A stretch of 64,000 nucleotides of DNA from Pseudomonas sp. RC10. Its GTDB lineage: Bacteria > Pseudomonadota > Gammaproteobacteria > Pseudomonadales > Pseudomonadaceae. A program made the translations under genes and the position numbers. A model generated the notes under the pieces. The model was not told the DNA's origin. It did not search any database and saw only the letters and a list, made by a program, of their open reading frames with translations. The stretch is taken from the NCBI RefSeq assembly GCF_038397775.1, contig NZ_CP151650.1, positions 3,534,001-3,598,000 of the forward strand. The letters are read 5' to 3'. Positions 51,675 through 64,000 of this stretch are shown one piece after another. How positions within the stretch are numbered: the first letter of the stretch is position 1; each line of letters opens with the position of its first letter.

Positions 51675-51925
51675 TCATCTTTTTCTGACGGTCTTTTCGA
51701 TCCCCTGAAATATCTTGTAATTGGCCCTAGGTCGATTGTTCTTTGTGCGCTATTTTGGTGCGGCGAATCGGTCTGTCTTGGGCCGGTACGCAGTCGCAAA
51801 AAAAGCTCCAGCCAATGTGCATCTGCAGTCGCAAGGATGCCGGGCGAGTCGTGAGAGGGTATGACCCCATCCGGCTCGACCCGCCAATGCTGTTCCACAT
51901 TCAAAAGAAGAAAGAGAGTCGACTC

Positions 51926-53650
51926 ATGAAGTTTGAACCCTTGGCCAAGTCGCTCATTGCGACCTCGCTCACCCTCGCGTTTTCCTCCACTTACGCCGCC
52001 TCCGTCGCCCCCGTTGCCGCTGAAAACGGCATGGTCGTCACCGCTCAGCATCTGGCCACTCACGTTGGCGTCGATGTGCTGAAGTCCGGCGGTAACGCGG
52101 TGGACGCCGCCGTTGCCGTAGGTTATGCGCTGGCAGTGGTTTACCCGGCTGCGGGTAACCTCGGCGGCGGTGGTTTCATGACCATCCAACTGGCGGACGG
52201 CCGCAAGACCTTCCTCGATTTCCGCGAAAAAGCCCCGCAGGCCGCCACCGCCAACATGTACCTGGACAAGGACGGCAACGTCGTTCCGGACCTCAGCTCC
52301 AAGGGCCATTTGGCCGTGGGGGTACCGGGCACGGTGTCCGGCATGGAAATGGCGCTGAGCAAATACGGCACCAAGAAGCGGGCCGAGGTCATTGCACCGG
52401 CGATCAAACTCGCCGAAAACGGCTTCCCGCTGGAGCAGGGCGACATCGATCTGCTGCACACCGCGACAGACGAGTTCAAGGCTGACAAAGACCTGACCCC
52501 GATCTTTCTGAACAAAGGCCAGCCGATGCAGGTTGGCGACAAGCTGGTGCAGAAGGACCTGGCAAAAACCCTCAAGGAAATCTCTGCCAAGGGGACCGAT
52601 GGTTTCTACAAGGGCTGGGTCGCCAAGGCCATCGTCGATTCGAGCAAGGCGGGCAAGGGCATCATCGTTCAGGCCGACCTCGACAAGTACAAAACCCGCG
52701 AACTGGCGCCCATCGAGTGCGATTACCGGGGCTACCACGTGGTCTCGGCGCCGCCTCCGAGTTCAGGTGGTGTGGTGATCTGCGAGATCATGAACATCCT
52801 CGAAGGCTACCCGATGAAGGAACTGGGCTATCACTCGGCCCAGGGCATGCACTATCAGATCGAGGCCATGCGTCACGCCTACGTGGACCGCAACAGCTAC
52901 CTCGGCGACCCGGATTTCGTGAAGAACCCGATCGCGCACCTGCTGGACCGTGACTACGCCACCAAACTGCGCGCCGCGATCGAACCGCAAAAAGCCGGCG
53001 ATTCCCAGGCCATCAAACCGGGCGTTGCGCCTCACGAAGGCAACAACACCACGCACTATTCCATCGTCGATAAGTGGGGCAACGCGGTTTCCGTGACCTA
53101 CACCCTCAACGACTGGTTCGGCGCGGGCGTGATGGCGAGCAAGACCGGCGTGATCCTCAACGACGAAATGGATGACTTCACCTCCAAGGTCGGCGTGCCG
53201 AACATGTACGGTCTGGTGCAGGGCGAAGCCAATGCCATTGCCCCGGGCAAGACGCCGTTGTCGTCGATGAGCCCGACCATCGTCACCAAGGATGGCAAGG
53301 CGGTAATGGTCGTCGGTACGCCGGGCGGCAGCCGCATCATCACGGCGACTTTGCTGACCATGCTCAACGTCATCGACTACGGCATGAACATCCAGGAAGC
53401 GGTAGATGCGCCGCGTTTCCACCAGCAGTGGATGCCTGAAACCACCAACCTCGAAAACTTCGCCGTCAGCCCTGACACGCAGAAGATTCTCGAAAGCTGG
53501 GGCCACAAATTCGGCGCGCCTCAGGACGCCAATCATCTGGCCGCCATTCTGGTCGGCGCGCCTTCGCTGGGTGGCAAGCCGGTGGGCAACAACCGCTTCT
53601 ACGGTGCCAATGACCCACGTCGCAATACCGGGCTTTCGCTGGGGTATTGA
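51926..53650 (+). CDS. ggt: Gamma-glutamyltransferase
   Basis: The 574-residue precursor has a signal peptide (LIATSLTLAFSSTYAA), a large subunit with the DFREKAPQAATANMY block, and the autoprocessing site at T375 in NNTTHYSIVD. The small subunit holds LSSMSPTIV and GTPGGSRI. The periplasmic enzyme hydrolyses or transfers the gamma-glutamyl group of glutathione. It fits the general sulfur and glutathione theme but is not in a sulfur operon. Confidence 0.96.
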   Translation: MKFEPLAKSLIATSLTLAFSSTYAASVAPVAAENGMVVTAQHLATHVGVDVLKSGGNAVDAAVAVGYALAVVYPAAGNLGGGGFMTIQLADGRKTFLDFREKAPQAATANMYLDKDGNVVPDLSSKGHLAVGVPGTVSGMEMALSKYGTKKRAEVIAPAIKLAENGFPLEQGDIDLLHTATDEFKADKDLTPIFLNKGQPMQVGDKLVQKDLAKTLKEISAKGTDGFYKGWVAKAIVDSSKAGKGIIVQADLDKYKTRELAPIECDYRGYHVVSAPPPSSGGVVICEIMNILEGYPMKELGYHSAQGMHYQIEAMRHAYVDRNSYLGDPDFVKNPIAHLLDRDYATKLRAAIEPQKAGDSQAIKPGVAPHEGNNTTHYSIVDKWGNAVSVTYTLNDWFGAGVMASKTGVILNDEMDDFTSKVGVPNMYGLVQGEANAIAPGKTPLSSMSPTIVTKDGKAVMVVGTPGGSRIITATLLTMLNVIDYGMNIQEAVDAPRFHQQWMPETTNLENFAVSPDTQKILESWGHKFGAPQDANHLAAILVGAPSLGGKPVGNNRFYGANDPRRNTGLSLGY

Positions 53651-53684
53651 GGTGTAAGGGTCACACAGTAAAAACACAGTAAAC

Positions 53685-53721
53685 ACGGGCGAGGCAGCGC
53701 AGTTGCCTCGCCCGTTTGTTT
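53685..53721 (+). terminator. Rho-independent terminator of ggt
   Basis: ACGGGCGAGGCA and TGCCTCGCCCGT form a perfect twelve-pair stem with a seven-base loop, followed by a short T-rich tail. It lies 34 bp after the ggt stop. Confidence 0.85.
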
Positions 53722-53760
53722 GATGCACAGATTTTGGTTGTCATCGGGCATGTCGCGAGT

Positions 53761-53773
53761 GTTATGTTATAAC
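53761..53773. promoter_or_regulatory. Zur-like operator before folE2
   Basis: The dyad GTTAT-GTT-ATAAC lies 60 bp before the folE2 start. It resembles the core of gamma-proteobacterial Zur sites (TGTTATA...TATAACA). FolE2 is known to replace zinc-dependent FolE1 under zinc limitation and is often Zur-controlled. Confidence 0.6.
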
Positions 53774-53832
53774 TCTTTGCGGCGAGCCTTCTCCGGTTCG
53801 CGTTGTCCTGATGCTGCGAGAACCTGCCTTAC

Positions 53833-54759
53833 ATGAACACTCCGCTTCCCGACGTTGCCTCCTCCGAGTTCTCTCAATCGCTGCTGCCGCTGGACTGGGT
53901 CGGCATGCGAGGCATTGATATCCCTTTGATCCTCGATGAACCTGGCGTTGGCGCGCCGATTCATGCCCGTGCGGATTTGCAGGTGGATTTGCCGATGCCA
54001 CAGATCAAGGGCATTCACATGTCACGGCTGTACACGCTGCTCGACCGCTTTGCCGAGCACCACGCCGTCAGCCCGGCGAGCCTCGCCGCACTCTTGCAAT
54101 TGATGGTGTCCAGTCACGCCGATTGCCATTCCTCGCAGGCGAGCGTTCGTCTGTCCTTCGACCTGCTGAGCAAACGGCCTGCCTTGATCACGCAGGGGTT
54201 GAGCGGCTGGAAGTCCTATCCGGTGGTGGTTGAGGCGCAGTGGAGGGAAGGGCGGCTCGCGCTGACGGTCAGTGTGGACGTCACCTATTCTTCGACCTGC
54301 CCGTGCTCGGCGGCGCTGTCGCGGCAATTGCTGGAGCAGGCGTTCACCGGGCATTTCGGTTCAGGGTCAGTGGATGCCGACGCCGTGGCGACCTGGCTTC
54401 GCCGGAATGGCTCCCACGCAACACCGCACAGCCAGCGCAGCGTGGCGCGGGTTCAGGTGAATGTCGATGAGGACGCTGAACGCCTGGGGCTGCTTGGGTT
54501 GATTGACGTCATCGAAGACGCGTTGGGCACGCCGGTGCAGACCGCCGTGAAGCGCGCCGACGAGCAAGCCTTCGCCCGTCTCAACGGGCAGAACCTGATG
54601 TACGTCGAAGATGCCGCGCGAAAGGTTCAGCAGGCGCTGACGGGGCGCTTTGCCGCCAGCAGCGTCTCAGTGCGCCACTTCGAAAGCCTGCACCCTCACG
54701 ACGCGGTCGCCTCCGCTTCCTACAGCGGGATGAGCCCGGCCCGAGGGCAGTTTGCATGA
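53833..54759 (+). CDS. folE2: GTP cyclohydrolase FolE2
   Basis: The 308-residue protein matches the zinc-independent GTP cyclohydrolase IB: AGVGAPIHARADLQVDL-like N-terminal strand, SHADCHSSQASVRLSF, the active-site cysteine region YSSTCPCSAALS, and the HATPHSQRS motif. It makes dihydroneopterin triphosphate for folate and related pterins. The stop overlaps the next gene as ATGA. Confidence 0.95.
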   Translation: MNTPLPDVASSEFSQSLLPLDWVGMRGIDIPLILDEPGVGAPIHARADLQVDLPMPQIKGIHMSRLYTLLDRFAEHHAVSPASLAALLQLMVSSHADCHSSQASVRLSFDLLSKRPALITQGLSGWKSYPVVVEAQWREGRLALTVSVDVTYSSTCPCSAALSRQLLEQAFTGHFGSGSVDADAVATWLRRNGSHATPHSQRSVARVQVNVDEDAERLGLLGLIDVIEDALGTPVQTAVKRADEQAFARLNGQNLMYVEDAARKVQQALTGRFAASSVSVRHFESLHPHDAVASASYSGMSPARGQFA

Positions 54760-55958
54760 GCCTTGCCTACGAAAACGAGCGCGCTATCGATGAATCGGCG
54801 GCGGCCGTCGAGGCGCCCGTCCGGCACAGCCGCTTGCAGTCGATTGACGCGCTGCGGGGCCTGATCATCGTGTTCATGTTGCTGGATCACGTGCGTGAGA
54901 CGTTTTTCCTGCATCGTCAGGTGACTGACCCGATGGACGTCGGCAGCACCAGCCTTGAGCTGTTTCTGAGCCGCACGCTGGCCCATTTCTGCGCGCCGCT
55001 GTTCGTGTTTCTGACAGGGCTTTCGGCGTTTCTGTACGGCCAGCGTCATGCGGGTACTAAAGGTGTGGCGCACTTCCTGTTCGTCCGCGGGCTGGTGCTC
55101 ATCGCGCTGGAACTGACACTGGTCAACGTTGCCTGGACTTTCCAGTTCCCGCCGTCGGTGATCTACCTGCAGGTGATCTGGGCCATCGGGCTGAGCATGC
55201 TCGCGCTGTCCGTTCTGGTCGCTTTGCCCCGTAGCGTGTTGGCTGTGCTGGGGCTGGCGATCATTGGCGGACACAACCTGCTGGACGGCGTGCATTTCGG
55301 CACCGATTCCTGGCTGCACGTTCCGTGGGCCATTTTGCATGACCGGGGTTGGATTGAGGTCAGCGATAGCCTGCGTCTGCGTACGTCGTACCCGGTGCTG
55401 CCCTGGATCGGCGTGATCGCTGTGGGGTACGCGGTCGGGCCCTGGTTCGCTCACGGCGCGGATGCGCAAAAACGTGAAATGAACCTCATCGTCTCGGGAT
55501 TCGGACTGCTGACGCTGTTTCTCGCGTTACGCGGCCTCAACGGCTACGGGGAGAAACCATGGACGCCGGGCGACACAACCACCCAAACCCTTATGAGCCT
55601 GCTCAACATCACCAAATACCCGCCTTCACTGCTGTTCATCAGTTTCACGCTGGGCTTCGGACTGCTGATGCTTGCCTGGCTGGAACGTGGCGCACAAAAG
55701 GTTTGGTTGAAACCCTTGGTGACGTTCGGCGCTGCCCCGATGTTTTTTTACCTGTTGCACCTGTATGTGCTCAAAGTGCTTTACCTGATCGCGCTGGCGG
55801 TGTGGGGCGCGAATCAGGGGACGTATTTCGGGTTCGATTCGGTGTCGGCGCTGTGGGTGTGCGCGGCAGCGATGACGCTCGCGTTATTTCCAGCCGTTCG
55901 TTGGTTTGCCGACCTCAAAGCCCGTCGGCGGGACATCACTTGGCTCAAATATTTTTGA
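54756..55958 (+). CDS. DUF1624 / HGSNAT-like membrane protein
   Basis: The 400-residue membrane protein has roughly nine or ten hydrophobic segments and opens with RLQSIDALRGLIIVFMLLDH, the mark of the heparan-alpha-glucosaminide N-acetyltransferase-like acyltransferase group. Such proteins may acylate a periplasmic sugar. It is translationally coupled to folE2, so it may be part of the zinc response, but the link is not understood. Confidence 0.85.
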   Translation: MSLAYENERAIDESAAAVEAPVRHSRLQSIDALRGLIIVFMLLDHVRETFFLHRQVTDPMDVGSTSLELFLSRTLAHFCAPLFVFLTGLSAFLYGQRHAGTKGVAHFLFVRGLVLIALELTLVNVAWTFQFPPSVIYLQVIWAIGLSMLALSVLVALPRSVLAVLGLAIIGGHNLLDGVHFGTDSWLHVPWAILHDRGWIEVSDSLRLRTSYPVLPWIGVIAVGYAVGPWFAHGADAQKREMNLIVSGFGLLTLFLALRGLNGYGEKPWTPGDTTTQTLMSLLNITKYPPSLLFISFTLGFGLLMLAWLERGAQKVWLKPLVTFGAAPMFFYLLHLYVLKVLYLIALAVWGANQGTYFGFDSVSALWVCAAAMTLALFPAVRWFADLKARRRDITWLKYF

Positions 55959-56000
55959 AACCGGACACGCCGGTCTGTCCGGCGCGTTCTACGGCTGAGC

Positions 56001-57143
56001 TCAGGTCCGTTGAAGACTGCGCTCCATGCGCGCCAGCGCGTCTTCCAGCATCGGCCGAGGGCAGCCGAAGTTCAGTCGCACGAACTGGCCGCAGTCGTCG
56101 CCGAACTCCAGGCCGCAGCTCAGAGCAACCTTGGCCTCGTTGAGAAAAAACTGCTGCGGGTGCTGAATGTCCAGCGCCGAGCAGTCCAGCCACGCGAGAT
56201 AGGTGCTTTGCGGCAGGTGCATGCGAATACCGGGGAAGCGGGTTTCCAAGGCGTGGGCCAAGTAGTCGCGGTTGTCCTGCAGGTAGGCATTGACCTGTGC
56301 CAGCCACTCAGCGCCGTCGCGATAGGCGGCTTGCGTCGCCTCAAGGCCCAGCGCGTTGACACTGTCCACCAACCCCAGGCGGCCCGCGTTGAAGCGCTCG
56401 CGCAATTCGGCGTTCTGCACCACGGCAAAGGCGGTCTTCATGCCGGCGATGTTCCAGGCTTTGCTGGCGGACATCAGGGTCACGCTGCGCGCGGCGATTT
56501 CCGGGCTCAGGGAGGCAATCGGGGTGTGACGACGGCCGTCGAACAGAATGTCGGCGTGGATTTCGTCGGAGATGATCAGCACGTCATGCTGCACGCAGGC
56601 CTCGCCGATGGCGCGCAGCTCGTCGCGCTCGAAGACCTTGCCCAGCGGGTTATGCGGATTGCTCAGCAATAGGGCGCGTGACTGCAGCAGCGCATTGTTC
56701 AGCGCAGCGATATCGGTGGGGTATTGGCCATTGGCGTCGACGTGAAGCGGCAGGTCGACTCGCGGCAGCTTCCAGTTCGCCGGGGCGTGCAGCAGTGGCG
56801 AGTAGTTGGGCGTCTGCACCAGTACGCCGCTGCCTGCGGGCACCAGGGTGTTGAGCGCCATGTTCACACCGGGTTCGACGCCGGGCAGGAACACCAGGTC
56901 TTCGGGTTGAATCACCCAGTCGTAGTGACGGGCCAGGTGCGCCACCAACGTCTGGCGCAGGCTGTCCTGCGCCACCGAGTAGCCGAGCAGCGGGTGTTCA
57001 AGACGGTTTTTCAGCGCTTGCACGATCGGCTCGGCCACCGGGAAATCCATGTCCGCCACCCACATCGGCAACACGTCTTCCGGGTACTGGCTCCACTTCT
57101 TGCTGCCGGTGTTCAGGCGCTGATAAACGCTGTTCAGGTCCAT
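56001..57143 (-). CDS. PatB/MalY-type PLP-dependent C-S lyase or aminotransferase
   Basis: The 380-residue fold-type I enzyme has the MalY/PatB start VLPMWVADMDFPVAEPI and the PLP lysine in MSASKAWNIAG. PatB proteins cleave cystathionine or cysteine conjugates. It is not in an operon; the next minus-strand gene ends 160 bp upstream, with a terminator between. Confidence 0.92.
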   Translation of the reverse strand: MDLNSVYQRLNTGSKKWSQYPEDVLPMWVADMDFPVAEPIVQALKNRLEHPLLGYSVAQDSLRQTLVAHLARHYDWVIQPEDLVFLPGVEPGVNMALNTLVPAGSGVLVQTPNYSPLLHAPANWKLPRVDLPLHVDANGQYPTDIAALNNALLQSRALLLSNPHNPLGKVFERDELRAIGEACVQHDVLIISDEIHADILFDGRRHTPIASLSPEIAARSVTLMSASKAWNIAGMKTAFAVVQNAELRERFNAGRLGLVDSVNALGLEATQAAYRDGAEWLAQVNAYLQDNRDYLAHALETRFPGIRMHLPQSTYLAWLDCSALDIQHPQQFFLNEAKVALSCGLEFGDDCGQFVRLNFGCPRPMLEDALARMERSLQRT

Positions 57144-59620: not shown

Positions 59621-60778
59621 TCACCAGAAGGTGCTCGCCTGGCTGTTCAAGCGACCCGCAATCACTTCAATCGCCTTATCGACATCTGCCGCCTCGGTGT
59701 AACGGCCCAGGCTCAAACGCAAGCTGCTGCCCGCCAGCGCGGGGCTCAGACCCATCGCCAACAACACGTGAGAAGCACCGCTGCTGGCGGAGTTGCAGGC
59801 CGACGTCGACGACACGGCGAGATCGCTGGACAGGCTCATGGCATTGAATCCGGCCTTGTCGACGCAGATGTTCAGCGTGTGCGGCACGCGTTGTAGCGGA
59901 TCGCCGTTGAGGCTCACCCCCGGCAGTTGCAGCAGGCCGTCACGCAGACGGGCCGACAGCACGCCGATGCGTTGCACTTCGTCCTCCATCTCGGCGCTGG
60001 CCAACGCGTAGGCCGCGCCCATGCCGACGATTTGGTGGGTGGCCAGCGTCCCGGAGCGGAAACCCTGTTCGTGCCCGCCGCCGTGAATCTGCGCTTCGAG
60101 CAACGGACGGGCACGCTCGCCGACGTACAGCGCGCCAATGCCTTTCGGGCCGTAGATTTTGTGAGCGGAGAACGACATCAGGTCCACAGGCAGTGCGTTG
60201 AGATCAATGGCCACCTTGCCTGCGCCTTGTGCGGCGTCGACGTGGAAAAGCGCGCCCTGAGCACGGAGCATCTCGCCGATGGTGGCGATGTCGGTCAGCG
60301 TGCCGAGTTCGTTGTTCACCAGCATCAGCGACACCAGCAGCGTGTCATCCCGCAGGGCATTGCGAACGGCGTCGGGGCGGATCAAACCGGCGCTGTCGGG
60401 TTCAAGCCAGGTCACGGGAAAGCCCGCCTGCTCAAGCTGACGCACGGTGTCGACCACGGCCTTGTGTTCGATGCGACTGGTGATCAGATGGCGACGCTGG
60501 GCAGGTGCGCGTTGCGCAATCCCTTTGATCGCGAGGTTGTTGGATTCGGTGGCCCCGGATGTCCAGATGATTGCATCGGCTGAACAGCCGACGAGCTCAG
60601 CGACCTGACGGCGTGCGAGTTCGACTGACTGGCGGGCGAGATTGCCATAGGCGTGGGAGTTGGAGGCGGGGTTGCCGAAGGTGCCGTCGCGACCGAGGCA
60701 GGTGACCATCGCCTGGATGACACGGTCATCGACAGGGGTGGTGGCGGCGTAATCGAAGTAACAAGGAAGTGTGCTCAT
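59621..60778 (-). CDS. Cysteine desulfurase (NifS/IscS-like)
   Basis: The 385-residue PLP enzyme has the lysine K207 in SFSAHKIYGPKG and the persulfide cysteine C328 in STSACNSASSGASHVL, plus the HVDAAQGAGK block. It takes sulfur from cysteine. It is not beside the isc or suf scaffold genes. Instead an Lrp/AsnC regulator diverges from it at 60986, suggesting amino-acid-responsive control and a role in cysteine breakdown or dedicated sulfur delivery. Confidence 0.93.
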   Translation of the reverse strand: MSTLPCYFDYAATTPVDDRVIQAMVTCLGRDGTFGNPASNSHAYGNLARQSVELARRQVAELVGCSADAIIWTSGATESNNLAIKGIAQRAPAQRRHLITSRIEHKAVVDTVRQLEQAGFPVTWLEPDSAGLIRPDAVRNALRDDTLLVSLMLVNNELGTLTDIATIGEMLRAQGALFHVDAAQGAGKVAIDLNALPVDLMSFSAHKIYGPKGIGALYVGERARPLLEAQIHGGGHEQGFRSGTLATHQIVGMGAAYALASAEMEDEVQRIGVLSARLRDGLLQLPGVSLNGDPLQRVPHTLNICVDKAGFNAMSLSSDLAVSSTSACNSASSGASHVLLAMGLSPALAGSSLRLSLGRYTEAADVDKAIEVIAGRLNSQASTFW

Positions 60779-60985
60779 GGGGGAGAAATCCGCGCTGTCC
60801 GTGATGGGAAAAATGTTACCTGCGTGGACCTGAAAAAAAATTGATTACTCAACGCTGATTGGGCTGCTGGTTAGAATATTTTTCGTATCTGCCCGTGCTT
60901 TAGAGAATAAAGTTTCGAGGACTGCGAGATTCGGCTTATCTTTATCGCCATTGGTCATAACCTTCACACGAGTCGACACCTTACG

Positions 60986-61447
60986 ATGGATAAATTCGAT
61001 CAAGCCATTCTCGGCATTCTTCAGGCCGACTGTACCCGTCCCATTGCAGAAATCGCCGACGCCATTGGCTTGGGCAGCACCGCGTGTTGGCGTCGGGTTC
61101 AGAAGCTCGAAGAGCAGGGCATGATCAGGGGGCGCGTTGCATTGCTGGACCCCGGCCAATTGAACGTCAACGTCACCGTATTCGCTGCGATACGTACCAA
61201 TCAGCACAATGCCGAATGGCTTGGACGCTTTCACGACCTTATCTCCACGCTGCCTGAGGTGGTGGAATGTTACCGCATGGCGGGCGATACGGATTACATG
61301 TTACGTATCGTTGTGCCTGATATTACCGGCTATGACGCGGTGTATAAAAAGCTGATTCAACTCTCGGGCATCACCGACATCAGTTCAAGCTTCGCCATGG
61401 AGCAAATCAAATCCACGACCCAATTGCCATTGACCTACGCCAGCTGA
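60986..61447 (+). CDS. Lrp/AsnC family transcriptional regulator
   Basis: The 153-residue protein has an N-terminal helix-turn-helix (IAEIADAIGLGSTACWRRVQKL) and a C-terminal AsnC ligand domain (VVECYRMAGDTDYMLRIV). It is divergent from the cysteine desulfurase with 207 bp between starts, so it likely senses cysteine or a related amino acid and controls that gene, itself, and maybe the flavoprotein operon 118 bp downstream. Confidence 0.93.
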   Translation: MDKFDQAILGILQADCTRPIAEIADAIGLGSTACWRRVQKLEEQGMIRGRVALLDPGQLNVNVTVFAAIRTNQHNAEWLGRFHDLISTLPEVVECYRMAGDTDYMLRIVVPDITGYDAVYKKLIQLSGITDISSSFAMEQIKSTTQLPLTYAS

Positions 61448-61565: not shown

Positions 61566-63296
61566 ATGACGCGCCAAGTGCTGGAACAGGAATACGACAT
61601 CGTGGTGATCGGCGGCGGCACGGCCGGACCGATGGCGGCGATCAAAGCCAAGGAACGCAATCGCAACCTGCGCGTGCTGCTGATCGACAAGGCCAACGTC
61701 AAGCGCAGCGGCGCCATCAGCATGGGCATGGACGGCTTGAACAACGCCGTGATTCCCGGCCACGCCACGCCTGAGCAATACACTAAGGAAATCACAATCG
61801 CCAACGACGGCATCGTCAATCAGGCGGCGGTGCACGCTTATGCGACCCACAGTTACGAAACCATCGAGCAACTGGACCGCTGGGGCGTGAAGTTCGAGAA
61901 GGACGAGACCGGCGATTACGCCGTCAAAAAAGTCCACCATATGGGCGCCTACGTGTTGCCGATGCCCGAAGGCCACGACATCAAGAAAGTGTTGTACCGC
62001 CAGTTGAAGCGGGCGAGGGTGACCATCACCAACCGAGTGGTCTGCACCCGTTTGCTCACCGATGAGGAAGGTGCAGTGAACGGCGTCATGGGGTTCGACT
62101 GTCGCACCGCCGATTTCTACGTGATCAAAGCCAAGGCCGTGATCCTCTGCTGCGGCGCTGCCGGGCGACTGGGCCTGCCGTCGTCGGGTTACCTGATGGG
62201 CACCTACGAAAACCCGACCAACGCAGGCGACGGTTATGCAATGGCCTATCACGCCGGTGCAGAACTGGCGAATCTGGAGTGCTTCCAGATCAACCCGCTG
62301 ATCAAGGATTACAACGGCCCCGCGTGCGCGTACGTGACCGGCCCCTTGGGCGGCTACACGGCCAACAACAAGGGCGACCGCTTCATCGAGTGCGACTACT
62401 GGAGCGGCCAGATGATGTGGGAGTTCCACCAGGAACTTGAAAGCGGCAACGGTCCGGTGTTTCTCAAGCTCGATCACCTGGCTGAAGAAACCATCCAGAA
62501 CATCGAGGAAATCCTGCACAGCAACGAGCGCCCGAGTCGTGGGCAGTTTCACGCCAATCGCGGCACCGATTACCGCAGCCAGATGGTGGAGATGCACATC
62601 TCGGAAATCGGCTTTTGCAGCGGGCATTCCGCCTCGGGGGTGTGGGTCAACGAGCGTGCGGAAACGTCGGTCAAGGGCCTGTATTCAGCGGGCGACATGG
62701 CAGCCGTCCCGCACAATTACATGCTCGGCGCGTTCACGTATGGCTGGTTCGCCGGCAACAACGCGGCGGATTACGTCGCGGTGCGGGATTTCAGCAGCGT
62801 TGATGCGCAACAGATCGAACGCGAAAAGGCGCGGGTCTATGCGCCTCTGGATCGCGAACACGGCCTGCCACCGGCGCAGGTCGAATACAAGCTGCGGCGC
62901 TTTGTGAACGACTATCTGCAACCGCCAAAAGTGACCAAAAAGATGCAGATCGGCTTGCAGCGCTTTGATGACATCGAGCGCGATCTCGACCAACTGAAAG
63001 CCAACAATGCTCACGAACTGATGCGGGCCATGGAAGTCAGCGTGATCCGTGACTGCGCCGAGATGGCCGCCCGCGCTTCGCTGTATCGCACTGAAAGCCG
63101 TTGGGGCCTTTACCACCACCGCGTCGATCATCCACTGCGCAACGACCGCGACTGGTTCTGCCACACGCACCTGAAGAAAGACGAAGACGGCCGCATGGTC
63201 AGTTTCAAGAAGCCGGTCGAGCCTTACATCGTGGCGTTGGACGCCGACGAAATGCTCGCCTATGACCGCCTGCGCGTGGGGGCTGACGCTGCCTGA
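61566..63296 (+). CDS. AprA/fumarate-reductase-like FAD flavoprotein
   Basis: The 576-residue protein has the FAD-binding VVIGGGTAGPMAA start, GDMAAVPHNYMLGAFTYG near residue 375 binding the flavin isoalloxazine side, and the C-terminal helical domain of the fumarate reductase/APS reductase alpha group. The partner 63356 gene is a two-cluster ferredoxin, exactly the AprAB layout, though AprA proper is longer. It may oxidise or reduce a sulfur or organic substrate. GGAGG lies seven bases before the ATG at 61566. Confidence 0.85.
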   Translation: MTRQVLEQEYDIVVIGGGTAGPMAAIKAKERNRNLRVLLIDKANVKRSGAISMGMDGLNNAVIPGHATPEQYTKEITIANDGIVNQAAVHAYATHSYETIEQLDRWGVKFEKDETGDYAVKKVHHMGAYVLPMPEGHDIKKVLYRQLKRARVTITNRVVCTRLLTDEEGAVNGVMGFDCRTADFYVIKAKAVILCCGAAGRLGLPSSGYLMGTYENPTNAGDGYAMAYHAGAELANLECFQINPLIKDYNGPACAYVTGPLGGYTANNKGDRFIECDYWSGQMMWEFHQELESGNGPVFLKLDHLAEETIQNIEEILHSNERPSRGQFHANRGTDYRSQMVEMHISEIGFCSGHSASGVWVNERAETSVKGLYSAGDMAAVPHNYMLGAFTYGWFAGNNAADYVAVRDFSSVDAQQIEREKARVYAPLDREHGLPPAQVEYKLRRFVNDYLQPPKVTKKMQIGLQRFDDIERDLDQLKANNAHELMRAMEVSVIRDCAEMAARASLYRTESRWGLYHHRVDHPLRNDRDWFCHTHLKKDEDGRMVSFKKPVEPYIVALDADEMLAYDRLRVGADAA

Positions 63297-63355
63297 TCCA
63301 GCGTCGCCTGCACCTTTTAGACAGAGAGCGCGATACGCGCCAAGGACACCGTGAA

Positions 63356-63601
63356 ATGGCTTACCAGCCCCAGGAAATCTTCTTCCGCTCCAACGCCCCG
63401 GTCACCGTGGACGAGGACAAGTGCATCGCCGACAAGGGCTGCACGGTATGCGTCGACGTCTGCCCGATGGACCTGCTGGCGATCAATCCCGCGACCCAGA
63501 AGGCTTACATGGCGTTCGACGAGTGCTGGTATTGCATGCCCTGCGAGAAGGACTGCCCGACCGGGGCCGTGAAGGTCGAGATTCCGTACCTGTTGCGCTG
63601 A
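63356..63601 (+). CDS. Ferredoxin with two [4Fe-4S] clusters (AprB-like)
   Basis: The 81-residue protein has two cysteine sets: C23, C29, C32, C36-P and C57, C60, C63, C67-P, as in AprB-type and other 8Fe-8S ferredoxins. It starts 60 bp after the flavoprotein stop and should pass electrons to or from it. Confidence 0.92.
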   Translation: MAYQPQEIFFRSNAPVTVDEDKCIADKGCTVCVDVCPMDLLAINPATQKAYMAFDECWYCMPCEKDCPTGAVKVEIPYLLR

Positions 63602-63612
63602 TACGTAAACTT

Positions 63613-63699
63613 TGTAGGAGTGAGCTTGCTCGCGATTGCGTCAGGTCAGACACCGTTATGCGTCTGATCCATCTCATCGCGAGCAAACTCACTCCTACA
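63613..63699. repeat. REP-like pair, GTGAGCTTGCTCGCGAT type
   Basis: TGTAGGAGTGAGCTTGCTCG and CGAGCAAACTCACTCCTACA are inverted around a spacer of about 40 bp. This third repeat family sits between the ferredoxin and binding-protein genes. Nothing else is seen up to 63819. Confidence 0.88.
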
Positions 63700-63819
63700 C
63701 GTGAACCTAAAGCCATCCGCCAACCCCGGACGCTGATTCACCCGACACCCCTCGTTTCCCACCGCGCCCGATCGCGGCGGAGACGACACTTCCTATCAAT
63801 GATGCGAGGGGATACATCC

Positions 63820-64000
63820 ATGTTATTGCGCGCCACGCTGGCCGGTTTCGTACTGGCTTCGTTGAGTCTGTCGGTTCAGGCCGAAACCATCCGGATTGCC
63901 ATCGGCACTCAAGACACCACCATCAATTGCGCGGCCGGCGGGCTGCTGATTCGCGAGCTCGGGCTGCTCGACAAATACCTGCCCCATGACGGCAAATACA
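63820..64000 (+). CDS. ABC transporter substrate-binding protein (N-terminus only)
   Basis: The frame is open to the window end and shows a signal peptide (LAGFVLASLSLSVQAE) followed by TIRIAIGTQDTTINCAAGGL, a start typical of periplasmic NMT1/SsuA-type binding proteins. The gene continues beyond the edge. It follows the flavoprotein and ferredoxin genes in the same direction, so the module probably includes its own importer. Confidence 0.8.
   Translation, partial: MLLRATLAGFVLASLSLSVQAETIRIAIGTQDTTINCAAGGLLIRELGLLDKYLPHDGKY

Follow-up and report, generated by a model that had tools for sequence, protein, structure and literature searches.

Two described enzymes lie closest to the genes considered here. 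The dissimilatory adenosine 5'-phosphosulfate (APS) reductase, AprAB, combines a flavoprotein, AprA, with a ferredoxin subunit, AprB, and a flavoprotein with a two-cluster ferredoxin subunit is likewise the layout of the FAD-type 3'-phosphoadenosine 5'-phosphosulfate (PAPS) reductase of Methanothermococcus thermolithotrophicus (8a8o), which is said to keep the residues to which catalysis has been ascribed in APS reductases (PMC10322725). At the end of a 64,000-nucleotide stretch of the genome of Pseudomonas sp. RC10 (the window, G000:C1:3534001-3598000, in a single-contig genome of 6.71 Mb), two genes encode proteins of this plan, an AprA-related flavoprotein and a short AprB-like ferredoxin, and are followed by the genes of an importer, a HEAT-repeat protein and a DUF971 protein. 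This set, referred to here as the module, is real and widespread, and its neighbouring genes in relatives point to reductive organosulfur chemistry. Its members run in one direction through the end of the window and beyond it (C1 positions are those of the contig):

61566..63296, + strand: AprA-related flavoprotein (FAD_binding_2 and Succ_DH_flav_C), 576 amino acids from its ATG, from the open reading frame listing and profiles
61563, + strand: alternative flavoprotein start, GTG
63356..63601, + strand: AprB-like ferredoxin with two 4Fe-4S motifs, 81 amino acids, from the open reading frame listing and profiles
63614..63698, + strand: inverted repeat of REP type, between the ferredoxin and binding-protein genes
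63820..64000, + strand: SsuA/TauA-class binding protein of secreted type, which starts in the window and is cut by its end
C1:3597820-3599229 (L009:5821-7230), + strand: the same binding protein in full, 469 amino acids
ending at C1:3600151, + strand: permease, outside the window
C1:3600151-3600999, + strand: ATPase, outside the window
C1:3600996-3601967, + strand: HEAT-repeat protein, 323 amino acids, outside the window
C1:3601964-3602260, + strand: DUF971 protein, 98 amino acids, outside the window

L009 is a stretch of the same genome, and adding 57999 to its positions gives window positions. A preliminary description of the window had reported a flavoprotein and a two-cluster ferredoxin followed by a binding-protein gene, and all three are found at the place it gave. 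Its suggestion to look past position 64000 for a permease and an ATPase is answered by the presence of both, together with the HEAT-repeat and DUF971 genes, these four following one another with consecutive end-to-start overlaps. The closest named loci to this one are from Pseudomonas, with protein identity of up to 93%; P. koreensis DSM 16610 (L041) and P. jessenii DSM 17150 (L028) are among the carriers of the module.

By score the flavoprotein is a member of NF006131/PRK08275 (1144.6 bits, cut-off 587), which NCBI names fumarate reductase/succinate dehydrogenase flavoprotein subunit; no characterised member behind that name was found in the literature searched. The second-best model is PRK13800 (865.6 bits), and next come two APS reductase alpha models at 304.3 and 187.8 bits, both under cut-off. 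The score against TIGR02061 (aprA) is 187.8 bits where the curated value is 641.75, and that against TIGR01812 (succinate dehydrogenase/fumarate reductase) is 167.9 bits where it is 567.3. In profile searches the closest solved protein is the Methanothermococcus PAPS reductase (1.1e-77), and the AprA of Archaeoglobus is a further solved relative (2.4e-56). A tree of 33 sequences comprised 14 family members, 15 AprA, an Ilyobacter enzyme and three paralogues from the window's genome. The 14 family members, from Pseudomonadota, Cyanobacteriota and Actinomycetota, form one clade (support 96/99) that is sister to the 15 AprA plus the Ilyobacter enzyme (100/99), and the three paralogues fall outside both (100/99), although these and the Ilyobacter row sit on long branches. 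The likeness to AprA and AprB drawn in the preliminary description is supported; the comparison with AprA that it called for places the flavoprotein beside the AprA clade, not within it. In this tree the family is nearer to AprA than to the succinate dehydrogenase (SDH)-like paralogue.

The active site sets the family apart from its sister clade. Alignment columns were compared for the same rows, the two columns that correspond to Arg 265 and Trp 234 of Archaeoglobus fulgidus AprA being counted on the alignment with the solved relatives; we take both residues to be catalytic. The first is Arg in 15/15 AprA and in the Ilyobacter enzyme and Leu in 14/14 family rows, and the second is Trp in all 15 AprA and in the Ilyobacter enzyme and Tyr in all 14 family members. 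Aligned to the family profile, the Methanothermococcus enzyme likewise has Arg at the position of the Leu. Not everything has changed: the column of H354, presumably an active-site residue, is His throughout the family and AprA and also in the Ilyobacter enzyme and the SDH-like paralogue, and that of H383 is His in family and AprA and Lys in the Ilyobacter enzyme. Three cysteines, C239, C254 and C351, are invariant in the 14 family rows at columns where all 15 AprA have Asn, Gly and either Leu or Met, respectively, and further family-invariant residues absent from AprA include R322, R325 and a DYWSGQM stretch. Because of these changes the flavoprotein, though related to AprA, cannot be presumed to act on APS. 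With a score far under the AprA cut-off and a separate sister clade besides, it is predicted not to be an APS reductase. A structure model of the flavoprotein reached a mean pLDDT (predicted local distance difference test) of 62.2, too low for use on the active site; around C239, C254 and C351 it is unreliable (pLDDT <50).

The ferredoxin was present in 116 of 117 loci scanned, and the eight cluster cysteines and the tryptophan of the CW motif shared with AprB are kept in all 116. It aligns to AprB (3gyx_B) over the two-cluster part, the rest of AprB being absent, so that the family ferredoxin corresponds to the first half of AprB alone; its TIGR02060 (AprB) score is 36.8 bits, over positions 2-65 of a 132-position profile, against a curated 135.65. 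The module thus shares with AprAB its two-subunit layout, both histidines and the CW motif, and differs from it in the Arg-to-Leu and Trp-to-Tyr changes, its own clade, scores under both cut-offs and a short ferredoxin.

Of 398 Pseudomonadota genomes 21 carry the family, counting that of the window, and 6,449 proteins among 7,999 scored candidates match at E <= 1e-60, though not all of these necessarily belong to this clade. In a sample of 299 Pseudomonadota genomes, 36 have a true AprA that scores above cut-off; none of the 37 with an AprA match is among the 21 with the family, of which the sample did not take in all. Layouts were read by tblastn in two sets of loci. The first, eighty named loci, holds the best 80 of 592 relatives, is weighted to near kin and includes some loci cut by contig ends; it has the ferredoxin in 79/80, a GntR regulator in 78/80, the HEAT-repeat protein in 75/80, DUF971 in 66/80 and a binding protein of this kind in 60/80, the commonest order being GntR, flavoprotein, ferredoxin, binding protein, permease, ATPase, HEAT. 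The second, more even set comprises 20-kb stretches from the 20 other family-bearing genomes among the 398; 60 stretches taken from these genomes at round positions served as controls. Here the flavoprotein is present in 20/20 by construction. The ferredoxin, HEAT and DUF971 are each found in 20/20 against 0/60 controls, the binding protein in 18/20 against 0/60 (38-88% identity), Crp/Fnr in 10/20 against 0/60 and GntR in 10/20 against 2/60. Neither amidase (1/20 against 2/60) nor GNAT (0/20 against 1/60) is enriched. In three loci, those of Methylocystis, Nostoc and a further genome (L014, L138, L156), amidase-family genes nonetheless occur close to the module.

In Tsukamurella the flavoprotein and the HEAT protein are fused in one chain of the PRK13800 type, which argues for a direct partnership; this fusion, of which no characterisation was found in the literature searched, has the same two parts and differs in the fusion itself and in gene order. 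The three cyanobacterial stretches have a gene for an Mrp/NBP35 ATPase after HEAT. A Pfam scan of the cyanobacterial Mrp showed no DUF971 domain, so that the idea of DUF971 as one of its domains was dropped and the parallel between the two is one of position alone. DUF971 and Mrp are, we assume, pieces found in 4Fe-4S carrier proteins such as HCF101, and for that reason a role in cluster delivery is proposed for both. In Nostoc edaphicum (L138:11971-19380) the flavoprotein and ferredoxin genes are separated by an insertion that encodes two HAD hydrolases, a methyltransferase, a GNAT protein and a VOC protein.

The binding protein has the SsuA/TauA-class fold, with TauA (8.9e-26) and SsuA (4e-23) as its best solved relatives; it scores 126.1 bits against TIGR01728 (SsuA family; curated 163.5) and also under the cut-off of TIGR01729. 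A dedicated ATP-binding cassette (ABC) importer of this class is supported, in line with the preliminary description, which had given the module an ABC binding protein of its own. Unlike SsuA/TauA binding proteins, that of the module carries a C-terminal stretch (the last ~105 codons) that is weakly NosL-like (7og7, 1.7e-4) with one profile of two, the match being absent up to E 0.1 with the second; structure comparison barely reaches past residue 349. On either side of the gene stand inverted repeats that we take to be of REP type. The one at 63614-63698 has many relatives elsewhere in the genome, and a second follows the gene beyond the window (L009:7231-7329).

Genes for electron supply also keep company with the module. 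A ferredoxin-NADP reductase is found in 9/20 sampled loci and FdxA in 4/20, each against 0/60 controls. In six loci (L158-L162, L165) the reductase gene lies just 5' of the flavoprotein on the same strand, with ~140-200 bp between aligned ends, and in four (L015, L155, L157, L163) the FdxA and reductase genes are adjacent and within ~7 kb; the reductase of L015 scores 170.8, where NCBI sets 390 as the cut-off for the enzyme of E. coli type. The linkage suggests NADPH-driven reduction but does not prove its direction.

The link to sulfur comes from the relatives. YeiH was seen in 6/20 sampled loci against 0/60 controls, and a set of sulfur markers in 8/20 against 4/60 (p = 0.0011); p-values and expectations given here assume independent genomes, and kinship among them means that independence is overstated. 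Counted over the 21 genomes, YeiH-type genes (PF03601) number 24, and in 6/21 genomes one is found no more than 10 kb from the flavoprotein, with 0.093 expected. TauD-family genes number 73; 5/21 genomes, all in the window's class, have one within 25 kb (expectation 0.59 hits), and 2/21 have one within 5 kb. In Salmonella, resistance to sulfite is driven mainly by YeiH (PMC12880088). YeiH-type and TauE/SafE genes lie downstream of the module in Pseudanabaena and Leptolyngbya, and TauE/SafE adjoins it in Aquabacterium. In Nostoc the module is not followed by such genes; near it are a sulfonate-binding protein, MetX, O-acetylhomoserine sulfhydrylase and YeeE. Sinorhizobium americanum has SsuD, TauD and sulfate/sulfonate ABC genes near the module, and eight of 16 annotated plasmid stretches hold an annotated sulfur gene (an uncontrolled count, one of the genes being a TSUP transporter ~7 kb off). 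From this linkage we think it likely that the module serves organosulfur metabolism. The preliminary description had suggested an unrecognised redox step for an imported sulfur compound; the relatives lend weight to the redox step, and we infer the sulfur substrate from them.

The best single mechanism we can offer, at a probability of roughly 40%, is a reaction driven by ferredoxin that frees sulfite from a sulfonate-type compound taken up from outside. The importer would take up a small sulfonate-type anion. Electrons would pass from NADPH, by way of ferredoxin-NADP reductase and FdxA in genomes that have their genes close to the module, or from another ferredoxin source, to the AprB-like ferredoxin and on to the FAD in the AprA-related subunit. 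Within an active site that has been remodelled and has cysteines absent from AprA, the flavin so reduced would then cleave the substrate to sulfite, to be assimilated, with any excess exported by YeiH or TauE/SafE. The HEAT-repeat protein may be a partner of the flavoprotein or an assembly scaffold, and DUF971, or the Mrp/NBP35 ATPase in cyanobacteria, may serve 4Fe-4S delivery to the ferredoxin. Electron direction, sulfite as the product and the roles of HEAT and DUF971/Mrp are parts that we infer. A bolder version, in which this AprA relative gives ordinary aerobes and cyanobacteria a ferredoxin-dependent, oxygen-independent route to organosulfonates that needs neither the SsuD/TauD oxygenases nor glycyl radical enzymes, we regard as doubtful.

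Several observations weigh against sulfite release from a sulfonate, and some against any sulfur role. With the AprA arginine lost, release of sulfite through the AprA mechanism cannot be assumed. Five of the six genomes with linked YeiH are of one genus, the link is found in 0/9 sampled loci of the window's class, and no member of the YeiH family was found in the window's genome at E <= 1e-20. Not one of the sulfur markers occurs at the window's own locus, 23 of the 80 named loci carry one and 57 do not (some of them being cut by contig ends), and eight of the 16 annotated plasmid stretches are likewise without a sulfur gene. Ferredoxin-NADP reductase is confined to loci outside the window's class (9/11, against 0/9 inside). 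Nitrate- or bicarbonate-binding structures of the same class score like SsuA and TauA for the binding protein. In 19 of the 80 named loci HEAT comes after the ferredoxin with no importer genes between; of 107 loci, 15 read GntR, flavoprotein, ferredoxin, HEAT with no importer in between, and four more have only an opposite-strand ATPase further along, which weakens the case for the importer as an obligate part of the module. No biochemical or fitness record of the module was found in the sources searched.

Among the alternatives, one dispenses with sulfur: the importer would bring in some other anion or small molecule, to be reduced as by other enzymes of the fumarate reductase fold. The family's NCBI name and the breadth of the binding-protein class would suit this, but all 14 family rows have Gly in place of the arginine common to the SDH-like and NadB-like paralogues, no membrane-anchor gene is found among the operon genes read, and the linkage to YeiH, TauD and TauE would go unexplained; we hold it to be unlikely. 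A neighbouring possibility leaves the module as described and changes only the bond, the conserved cysteines cleaving an S-S or S-sulfo bond (in a thiosulfonate, S-sulfocysteine, thiosulfate or compound of polythionate type) in place of C-S. It would account for three cysteines kept throughout the family and missing from AprA, and YeeE/YedE near the Nostoc module fits it; yet the clustering of these residues is unsupported where the model falls below pLDDT 50, and C351 is Cys in the NadB-like paralogue too, so that this version is likewise unlikely.

Two readings stay closer to known enzymes. Run in reverse, with electrons passing to the ferredoxin, the module would oxidise or detoxify sulfite or sulfur, and sulfite-resistance transporters beside it fit that equally well; a dedicated importer and a ferredoxin-NADP reductase suggest instead uptake and reduction, and with the loss of the AprA arginine they make oxidation highly improbable. 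A true APS or PAPS reductase for assimilation, like that of Methanothermococcus, has in its favour that this enzyme is the best solved relative. The Leu and Tyr of all 14 family members, their separate clade, and an importer where the gene of the Ilyobacter enzyme adjoins CysC and CysD genes speak against it, and it is highly improbable. Sulfite release from a sulfonate-type compound remains the reading we prefer.

The module is not described in the literature found by our search, as judged on titles and abstracts. The parts seen of PMC8557817 hold no flavoprotein or HEAT protein of its kind, those of PMC8305402 list NifA-dependent sulfonate genes without its flavoprotein among them, and in those of PMC12892962 no connection to the module could be made for the Acinetobacter rows ABUW_1569/1570. 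Each component comes from a known fold family, and for the combination and the active site no characterised counterpart was found. The compact gene set looks like an undescribed route to sulfur from organic molecules, in a common, multi-phylum family that is named after fumarate reductase yet is nearer to APS reductase. Were sulfur indeed freed from sulfonates without oxygen, the sulfur cycle of soils and waters would gain a further route, and the APS reductase fold would be seen in a new role.

Directly 5' of the module the window has two further genes:

60986..61447, + strand: Lrp/AsnC regulator
59621-61447: the same regulator with an IscS-like cysteine desulfurase, divergent from it

The preliminary description had counted this pair as evidence for a sulfur role, a use that does not hold up. 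The desulfurase scores under the IscS cut-offs, and a close relative of it occurs in five of 59 Pseudomonas genomes, the window's own included. The Lrp gene adjoins it in four of these five, and two of the five (G020, G023) have no flavoprotein at E <= 1e-100. Among 107 scanned loci the Lrp gene is found only in L009 and L101, both the window's own locus, and a GntR gene takes its place in 97. A link of the pair to the module was accordingly rejected; Lrp and desulfurase are judged to be an independent unit, though Lrp could drive the module in the window's strain.

In Acidithiobacillus caldus, two plasmids (NC_015854.1, NZ_CP026330.1) match only residues 1-160 of the flavoprotein (73%), unlike pTcM1, which has a full-length copy. 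Further upstream in the window, at 51743-57143, lie genes for a gamma-glutamyltransferase, a FolE2 GTP cyclohydrolase and a PatB-family C-S lyase.
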